In this document: positions 1,185-50,013 of the stretch, piece by piece
How positions within the stretch are numbered: position 1 is the first letter of the stretch
How the letters are laid out: each line of letters starts with the position of its first letter
Source: Echinicola arenosa
Lineage (GTDB): Bacteria > Bacteroidota > Bacteroidia > Cytophagales > Cyclobacteriaceae
Assembly (NCBI RefSeq): GCF_014841125.1
Contig: NZ_JACYTQ010000001.1
Coordinates: 930,001-994,000, forward strand
Length of the DNA: 64,000 nucleotides
Direction of reading: 5' to 3'
The notes under the pieces: model-generated
Seen by the model: the letters and a program-made list of their open reading frames with translations, nothing else
Database searches by the model: none
What the model was told of the DNA's origin: nothing
Translations under genes and position numbers: made by a program

Positions 1185-1405
1185 AAAGAGTCAATGTTAA
1201 AAATGTTACATTCATTAATATGGACCATTTTCACACCAGTAACCTGAATCCCACTGCCTGTCCGCCCGCAACGGAGATTCCATGGACCTAGCAGGGGCAG
1301 TAGAAAGGTTTAGACAATCATTTCTGTGAGATCTGAGCTGTTTTTGAGAGAATGTTTTGAAGGGTTAAATGTAATGGTGAGATAGCGGATATACAGAAAA
1401 TATTT

Positions 1406-27017: not shown

Positions 27018-27360
27018 AGTAAATATCTACTGATCTTTACTCATAAATCCTGGGACTGGTCAAATTACTCCTTAATCAAGAAAATAAATTTCAAAAAATA
27101 TTTCAGGTTAAATAGGACACTCTAAATTCTCTAAAAAAACAATCTGGTTATCCGCTATGATGCCAGTAACCATACATCCTTTGCTCAAGTGGTCGGAAGC
27201 CTGCCTAACGGCTAGGTAGAACCAAAGTCTGAAGACCAAAGCAGTTAATACTTTAATCAAAAGGGTAGTTTCTACTCGCTTTTAATCTTTACTAGTAGAA
27301 TTGCGGATATACATAAAAAAATAATTTTGGTCCATATAATACAGAAATAAAAAAATACAA
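27018..27360. other. 343-bp sigma-FecR spacer of module 3
   Basis: No gene. About half of it is the second copy of the dispersed element (27146-27312) with its flanking direct repeats at 27132-27143 and 27314-27325. Confidence 0.6.
27146..27312 (+). repeat. Dispersed MITE-like element, copy 2
   Basis: About 167 bp, from GGTTATCCGCTATGATGCC to GAATTGCGGATATAC, with inverted termini (TATCCGC at one end, GCGGATA at the other). The interior matches copy 1 over TCAAGTGGTCGGAAGCCTG and copy 3 over TCTGAAGACCAAAGCAGT and ACTCGCTTTTAATC. It is flanked by a 12-bp direct repeat with one mismatch: TAAAAAAACAAT (27132-27143) and TAAAAAAATAAT (27314-27325). Located between sigma and FecR genes of module 3, as copy 1 is in module 1. 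Confidence 0.75.
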
Positions 27361-48894: not shown

Positions 48895-49515
48895 AGGTTC
48901 TAATTAGAAATAGGGTTGTTTTTTTTACAAAATGGGTAAAGTTGGTTAAATCAACCAAATCGTACAGTATACATTAAAATTAAAATATTTTACCATCAAT
49001 AACCATCTTTATCTATTTTTTTCACTAATGGTTTTCAAGCACATATTAACTTGTCAGAATTAAACTGGGTTTCAGTTTAAGCAAATCTCCTTGAGAAAAG
49101 AGACACTGACCATCCCTAAATACCCCAACTAAACTTATTGTATATCCCAAAACAATATTAGAAATGATTACGTTAACTTACTTTAATTGGTCGGACAGCT
49201 CAGCTTCAAGATTTTTTGCACCTGAGTAAACTGTTTTTGCTCAAAGCAATTGTATTATCTGATTATCCGCAATGATGCCAGTAACCTTAAATCCTTTGCT
49301 TTAAGTGGTAAGAAGTTTGAAGCCTGAAGACCGAAGCAGTTGATATTTTAATCAAAACGAACATTTCGACTCGCTTTTAATCTTTACTGGTGCAATTGCG
49401 GATATACATTTTGTATTATTCCATAAGTGAATGATGTAACATCTTTTGAGACTTAAATTTCATTATAAATTCAATTTTAACTCAATAATCAATAATTTTT
49501 ACAACCAATACCTTT
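48895..49515. other. 621-bp intergenic region with dispersed element copy 3
   Basis: Divergent region between the lipoprotein gene and the DUF4488-like gene. It contains an 8-bp hairpin TTAAACTG / CAGTTTAA (49060-49067, 49073-49080) and the third copy of the dispersed element (49261-49407) with flanking TTGTATTAT repeats. No gene seen. Confidence 0.6.
49261..49407 (+). repeat. Dispersed MITE-like element, copy 3
   Basis: About 147 bp, the shortest copy; relative to copies 1 and 2 it lacks about 20 bp after AAGTGGT. The termini are the best inverted pair: start TATCCGCAATGATGCCAGTAA against the reverse complement of the end, TATCCGCAATTGCACCAGTAA, identical except for a 4-base core. A perfect 9-bp direct repeat TTGTATTAT flanks it (49250-49258 and 49411-49419). 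The element ends about 108 bp upstream of the secreted-protein gene at 49516. Confidence 0.78.
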
Positions 49516-50013
49516 ATGAAAATACCATTTATCTTATTAATTGCTTTAATAATTTCGATGCCTCTTGTCGCGCAAACTCACGTACCAGCCTCTGAATCCC
49601 TTGTTGGAATATGGAGACAAACTGGAATGATGAACCGTTTTACTGGTGAAATCATAAATGTCACATCAGGAAATTACAAAGTGTATAACCCTGACAATAC
49701 CTATTATACTTTCGTAGCATGGGAAAAGGATAATACTCCTCAAGAAACTACCATAGGACAATATGGAACTTATAACATTACTTCAGACAGTACTTTGACA
49801 GAACATATCATCAAGCATATATTAAGTCCTAACATGAATGACAAAAACAGTTCTTTACGCTATGAGATGATTGATAAAAACAACATTCTTATCAAGTGGC
49901 AAGTTGACAACCAAAACTGGGTCGCTGAAAGATGGAGTCGACTAGCCTTAACCTCCCCATTACAAAACAAAGACAAGCCACTCAATAAACGTGGACAAAC
50001 AACAACACTATAG
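49516..50013 (+). CDS. Secreted DUF4488 / lipocalin-like protein
   Basis: 165 residues with a signal peptide (MKIPFILLIALIISMPLVAQ). The mature part starts with SLVGIWRQTG and continues in short beta strands (YKVYNPDNTYYTFVAW, GQYGTYNITSDS, ILIKWQVDNQNWVAERWSRL), a pattern of the lipocalin-like DUF4488 group. No catalytic residues recognised. It is a single gene with a hairpin (50070-50095) downstream and dispersed element copy 3 upstream. Role unknown. Confidence 0.75.
   Translation: MKIPFILLIALIISMPLVAQTHVPASESLVGIWRQTGMMNRFTGEIINVTSGNYKVYNPDNTYYTFVAWEKDNTPQETTIGQYGTYNITSDSTLTEHIIKHILSPNMNDKNSSLRYEMIDKNNILIKWQVDNQNWVAERWSRLALTSPLQNKDKPLNKRGQTTTL

Follow-up and report, generated by a model that had tools for sequence, protein, structure and literature searches.

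Short intergenic repeats of Echinicola arenosa as a probable MITE family moved by an IS1595-family transposase

Results

Three homologous repeats and their limits

Three stretches of the window (the whole 64-kb stretch of DNA analysed), at 577-740, 27146-27312 and 49261-49407, are present and mutually homologous, as the initial annotation had claimed. The homology stands, but the limits given there do not: the true ends lie three bases further out, and the first copy was wrongly delimited. The exact ends 49258-49410 and 27143-27315 could be set because they are fixed by the target duplication. The features are as follows:

49258-49410, + strand: predicted 153-bp MITE of the young subfamily, main copy; ends TCTGATTATCCGC...GCGGATATACATT, flanking duplication 8/8
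49250-49257, + strand: target duplication TTGTATTA, left copy
49411-49418, + strand: target duplication TTGTATTA, right copy
27143-27315, + strand: predicted 173-bp MITE of the older subfamily; ends TCTGGTTATCCGC...GCGGATATACATA, flanks AAAAACAA / AAAAAATA agreeing at 6/8
27135-27142, + strand: left flank of the 173-bp MITE, possibly a decayed duplication (6/8)
27316-27323, + strand: right flank of the 173-bp MITE, possibly a decayed duplication (6/8)
574-1397, + strand: predicted 824-bp non-autonomous element; outer ends TCTGATTATCCCC...GCGGATATACAGA, 8/8 duplication AAATATTT, site empty in the related genome G007
574-743, + strand: MITE-like left unit of the 824-bp element, 170 bp, closed by an internal look-alike of the right end; flank match at this right border 1/8
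566-573, + strand: target duplication AAATATTT, left copy
1398-1405, + strand: target duplication AAATATTT, right copy

The termini are inverted as had been described, with 21-nt arms that are 81% (49264-49284/49384-49404) and 76% (27149-27169/27289-27309) complementary; these two of the three window copies gave an inverted pair in the repeat finder, which returned none for the copy at 577-740. Coding capacity had been ruled out in the initial annotation, and no ORF of at least 90 aa occurs in either short window copy or in the 824-bp unit.

For the first copy, flank agreement is 1/8 at the inner right end (743) and 8/8 at the outer one (1397), and the mobile unit is therefore 574-1397, so that the repeat first noticed at 577-740 is the left part of the 824-bp unit rather than a free-standing element. 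Eight long elements of this sort, of 601-824 bp, occur in the genome that holds the window, with outer flanks agreeing at 6 to 8 of 8 positions and an inner look-alike of the right end in seven of the eight. These would be longer cargo versions, which use an outer right end past the MITE's own. The extra DNA of the 824-bp element was found in 5 of the 11 genomes of the genus (G000 to G010, G000 being the draft assembly to which the window belongs), namely the five in which long matches to the MITE also occur. Window positions 1296-1370, within this element, have many additional short matches in G001, G008 and G009, and may belong to yet another repeat.

Copy number, target duplications and placement in the draft genome

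The three copies first reported are a small part of those present in G000 (5.39 Mb, 20 contigs). At least 40 BLAST matches to a 166-bp query were found (40 of 86 candidates scored). With up to 3 mismatches allowed, a 22-base pattern of the left end occurs at 57 places (none for the reversed control); a 14-base pattern of the right end, with at most 1 mismatch, occurs at 51 (one for the control). A right end lies within reach of 49 of the 57 left ends and was not found for the other eight. Forty-one of the paired copies measure 138-173 bp, and the remainder are the long elements.

Boundaries were set by one rule (the element starts 6 bases before TATCCGC and stops 6 bases after GCGGATA), and if a left end had more than one candidate right end, the one with the best flank match was retained, which carries a small bias in favour of flank agreement. 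On this basis the 8-base flanks agree at 8/8 in 28 and at 7/8 in 9 of the 49 paired copies (37 in total), compared with 0.21% and 1.66% of pairings between different elements, and the peak of flank matches is seen at one fixed offset only. The 12 copies with agreement of 6/8 or less, the second window copy included, may have decayed or recombined. The duplicated sites are rich in A and T and nearly palindromic, with A[TT....AA]T as preferred site (the base before the duplication is A in 30 of 37 cases, the base after it T in 29 of 37).

Mean divergence is 2.0% among 13 young copies (gaps ignored) and 12.5% among the other 28 short copies; the family has been amplified recently. Of the 49 insertions, 46 lie outside predicted ORFs, whereas 873 of 1000 random window positions fall inside one, and the three that interrupt a predicted ORF sit 23-45 bp from one of its ends. 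Neighbouring genes are in tandem at 29 of the 49 insertions, convergent at 8 and divergent at 7, with the 3 insertions within ORFs and 2 left unassigned making up the rest.

Two local arrangements were noted among these copies. At C19:206248, right ends occur at 152 and 554 bases, each followed by TAGTTTAA, as if two tandem elements had one target in common. At this site and at C1:803756 and C12:84094, TCTGA, which resembles the element's own left end, directly follows the right duplication; the empty sites of G007 that match C1:803756 and C12:84094 already have TCTGA.

Empty sites in a related genome

The initial annotation had suggested a comparison with unoccupied sites in related strains, and such sites are present in G007, a relative near enough for many orthologous places to be compared. 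We compared 24 sites of G000, i.e., the whole young type (13 copies of 146-153 bp; flanks 4 to 8 of 8) and 11 older copies whose duplications are perfect. In G007, 16 of these sites align straight through the junction with no element present, a match spanning the junction was not obtained for the other 8, and none of the 24 was seen to be filled. Eight bases at the junction are also missing in G007 at one of the 16 empty sites (C16:127074), and at one of the eight unread sites (C15:307010) the flanks lie side by side in G007 with the bases around the junction missing. As for the window, the first copy has a clean empty site (joined flanks of 569 bp, 95% identical), the second is absent from G007 at a junction too diverged for exact reading, and the third gave no readable site.

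Insertion sequences with the same ends

A transposase gene with TATCCGCAAT termini had been named as the thing to look for, and genes of this sort, of the IS1595 family, are present in genomes of the same genus. There the two ends lie about 1 kb apart and delimit insertion sequences (ISs) of 1,036-1,042 bp, found in G001 (with stops in the transposase), G002, G004, G006, G007 and G008. A single ORF of 304-308 aa fills each of the three ISs examined; all three proteins match PF12762 (DDE_Tnp_IS1595; E 2e-23 to 1.9e-22), and the one scanned with the NCBI model of IS1595 transposases, NF033547, matches it with E 1.3e-57. An N-terminal zinc ribbon (PF12760) scored above the cut-off in one of the three, below it in another and was unreported in the last. 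With the same boundary rule, a perfect 8-bp duplication flanks 8 of 11 distinct IS sites and is absent at the other three (L097, L098 and L115). Loci L096, L102 and L113 (in G004, G006 and G008) represent one IS insertion, with 16 identical bases on each side and protein matches 100% identical.

Stop-free copies of this transposase (at least 87% identity over the whole protein) number 9 in G002, 2 in G004, 1 in G006, 4 in G007 and 1 in G008, and none was found in the other six of the 11 genomes, among which G001 has one copy with three stops. In four more distant IS1595 copies (L117, L123, L124 and L129; 52-71% identity), the paired ends were not seen within the limits of the search. G008 also holds 17 copies, with closely similar scores, of another IS1595-family IS (e.g., L124 and L129), whose protein is 52% identical to the putative helper and which lacks the paired ends in the two copies checked.

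The MITE and the ISs have in common only about 36 bases on the left and 25 on the right. A simple internal deletion of an IS was considered as the origin of the MITE and rejected for the ISs seen, since the alignment is confined to the ends.

In G000 itself, no IS1595 transposase was found (no match to PF12762, none to the helper at E ≤ 1e-10), and its MITEs therefore look stranded; because this assembly is a draft, a helper may lie on a lost contig or plasmid. Two weak N-terminal matches to the helper (E ~2e-6) turned out to be membrane receptors with a zinc ribbon and no transposases. These receptors (L302:19-1908, G000 C1 at about 431.4-433.3 kb, and L303:31-1899, G000 C14 at about 624.9-626.8 kb) are 622-629 aa long and combine the 7TMR-DISM 7TM region with the extracellular domain 2; PF12760 is above the cut-off in one and below it in the other. 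Their C-terminal zinc ribbon and the stretch next to it resemble the N-terminal region of IS1595 transposases, and one of the two genes lies just upstream of a SusC-like gene while the other adjoins a GH3-like gene (both by eye). This suggests regulators in the membrane that have captured a domain from a transposase. We found no description of 7TMR-DISM combined with a zinc ribbon in the open-licence literature.

Discussion

Nature and mobility of the repeats

We conclude that the repeats are, very probably, a MITE family mobilised in trans by a transposase of the IS1595 family (ISXO2-like), a reading drawn from sequence comparison. It is favoured because the copies are short and non-coding, with imperfect terminal inverted repeats as in the full-length IS1595-family ISs of the genus, and because they show an AT-rich 8-bp target duplication, dispersed and mostly intergenic placement, and empty sites in G007. 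The earlier proposal of a non-autonomous transposable element was thus right in kind. It had named as counter-findings that the three matches be the only ones in the genus and always at the same orthologous positions, or that they match a known RNA family; what we found is more than three copies, absence from 16 readable orthologous places and no match of the window to an Rfam family at the gathering threshold.

Mechanistically, the transposase would bind two-part ends, with GCGGATA as the outer and TTACTGG as the inner part, cut them, and insert the element at a target opened with a stagger of 8 bp. A helper since lost, or one encoded on DNA outside the assembly, would have spread the copies in G000.

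Other origins were weighed against this one. The initial annotation had mentioned structured RNA as an alternative, i.e., a dispersed family of structured or regulatory RNA genes kept for a folded transcript, and a single strand does fold better than its shuffles (z -2.98, DNA energies), with pairing in 1028 of the 1055 cells of a consensus fold of the 41 short copies; moreover, some Algoriphagus copies have a recognisable left half of the interior. However, the fold consists mainly of the inverted ends, which alone would largely give this pairing, and across the 41 short copies (8 long ones omitted; 26 pairs) one two-sided change only was seen, C-G to G-U, in one sequence. The 64-kb window gave no Rfam match at the gathering threshold, and target duplications and empty sites are unexpected for an RNA gene; the RNA origin thus has little in its favour, and we hold it to be very unlikely. 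Many mostly intergenic copies with inverted ends are likewise what REP/BIME-like repeats spread by a RAYT (an IS200/IS605-like Y1 enzyme) would look like. RAYT systems are not known to leave a target duplication, so the clear 8-bp duplications disfavour this origin, as does the enzyme that carries these ends, which is a DDE transposase; a RAYT is accordingly the candidate that we find hardest to credit.

The scarcity of insertions in predicted ORFs and the lack of a detectable helper in G000 would also suit a module that the host has kept as promoter, terminator or binding site once transposition had stopped. Yet the region of the third window copy (49200-49520) holds 1 promoter-like signal vs. 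1.5 in shuffles and 0 terminators vs. 0.1 (sigma-70 type, one copy), the flanking genes lie in all orientations, and two thirds of the compared sites (16/24) are empty in G007, all of which makes a role of this kind improbable.

Relation to known elements

An IS1595-derived MITE is, as a kind, already in print: excerpts of PMC3852290 describe one of 165 bp in Haloquadratum walsbyi, with an 8-bp direct repeat, an inverted repeat of 25 and 7 copies, and ISHwa6 as its putative parent. By this description it is like the MITEs presented here in its IS1595 parentage and 8-bp repeat, and differs in its archaeal host and in the IS concerned. ISApl4, an element of the IS1016 subgroup (712 bp, GGGGCTGTACTAGA ends), resembles the present system in its IS1595-family transposase and A/T-rich 8-bp direct repeats at insertion sites, but it is autonomous, whereas our MITEs are non-coding and have unrelated ends (excerpts of PMC12561309). 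Within the consulted parts of PMC4596501 and PMC9769881, BrickBuilt and its relatives in Porphyromonas gingivalis and MITECca01 in Cardinium are, as here, non-coding with ends that match, or are similar to, the ends of a full-length IS, which is of the IS5 family for BrickBuilt and IS982 for MITECca01, as opposed to IS1595 for the present MITEs.

In the open-licence literature on IS1595 and Bacteroidetes MITEs, Cyclobacteriaceae, Algoriphagus and Echinicola, we found no description of this family in titles and the beginnings of abstracts, nor does it figure in the available excerpts of PMC11578231 (a Paracoccus MITE, tied to IS1182) and PMC9208149. What appears to be new is thus a well-delimited, recently amplified MITE family with an identified type of helper in environmental Bacteroidota, which would also account for one class of repeats between genes that annotation would leave blank. 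Beyond bacteria and archaea, the Merlin DNA transposons of eukaryotes are related to the IS1595 family.

Distribution across the genus and beyond

The genome- and genus-wide search that the initial annotation had called for returned many dispersed copies. Counted per genome with ISs included (controls 0, except 1 in G007), left ends number 57 in G000, 36 in G008, 23 in G001, 19 in G009, 10 in G002, 7 each in G006 and G007, 3 in G003 and 2 each in G005 and G004, as well as 68 in G010, which may not be this MITE as the matches to it in that genome are of end length only. Some genomes of the genus thus hold the helper only, others MITEs only and others both, so that how MITEs outlive or exhaust their helper becomes testable.

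Across GTDB genomes, at least 104 stretches match the exact 22-base pattern (one free position). The 80 loci listed are labelled Algoriphagus (55), Spirosoma fluviale MAGs (12), Echinicola (4), Litoribacter (3), Cyclobacteriaceae (3), Belliella (1), Cytophagales (1) and Bacteroidetes (1). Among these 80, a right end with matching flanks is present in 36 (28 at 8/8 and 8 at 7/8, against a null of 0/1260 at 8/8 and 1.5% at 7 or more), a right end with a weaker flank match in 13 and a transposase in 10, while no right end was found for 21, some of them at contig ends. Lengths of 151-153 bp recur in 24 of the 36 flank-matched loci among the matches listed, and short elements in Algoriphagus, Echinicola and Litoribacter are bounded by the same ends.

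Within Echinicola, the three copies labelled E. salinicaeni that were read are mutually identical and 6.8% from the young type of G000, from which the one labelled E. shivajiensis differs by 3.1%. Outside this genus, BLAST detected interior homology in 1 of 32 elements (E 5.8e-4). A profile of the interior, which begins at base 28 and whose first bases still overlap the stretch in common with the ISs, gave 10 Algoriphagus elements, eight from the one strain AGSA1, scores of 12-14 bits, compared with a best score of 4.5 among 3,600 shuffled sequences (blocks of two). Common ancestry with these Algoriphagus elements in the left half of the interior is likely, though not overwhelmingly so.

Among the genus genomes, an intact close helper is missing from four of the five with at least 19 left ends (G000, G001, G009 and G010) and present in four of the six with no more than 10. 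It is tempting to speculate that one MITE lineage of about 152 bp, with a partly conserved interior, has persisted across several Cyclobacteriaceae genera through repeated species-specific bursts, and that its success tends to precede the loss of the helper, although with a pattern from 11 genomes we would regard this scenario as unlikely. If true, the MITE, as a parasite of a parasite, would drive the element it lives on to extinction and thereafter depend on re-infection.

Nine of the loci beyond the genus search (L163, L165, L178, L193, L196, L204, L217, L219 and L226), mostly in Algoriphagus and the "Spirosoma" MAGs, appear by eye to form a second MITE type, with the same left end, a right end close to GCGGATAATCA and a different interior.
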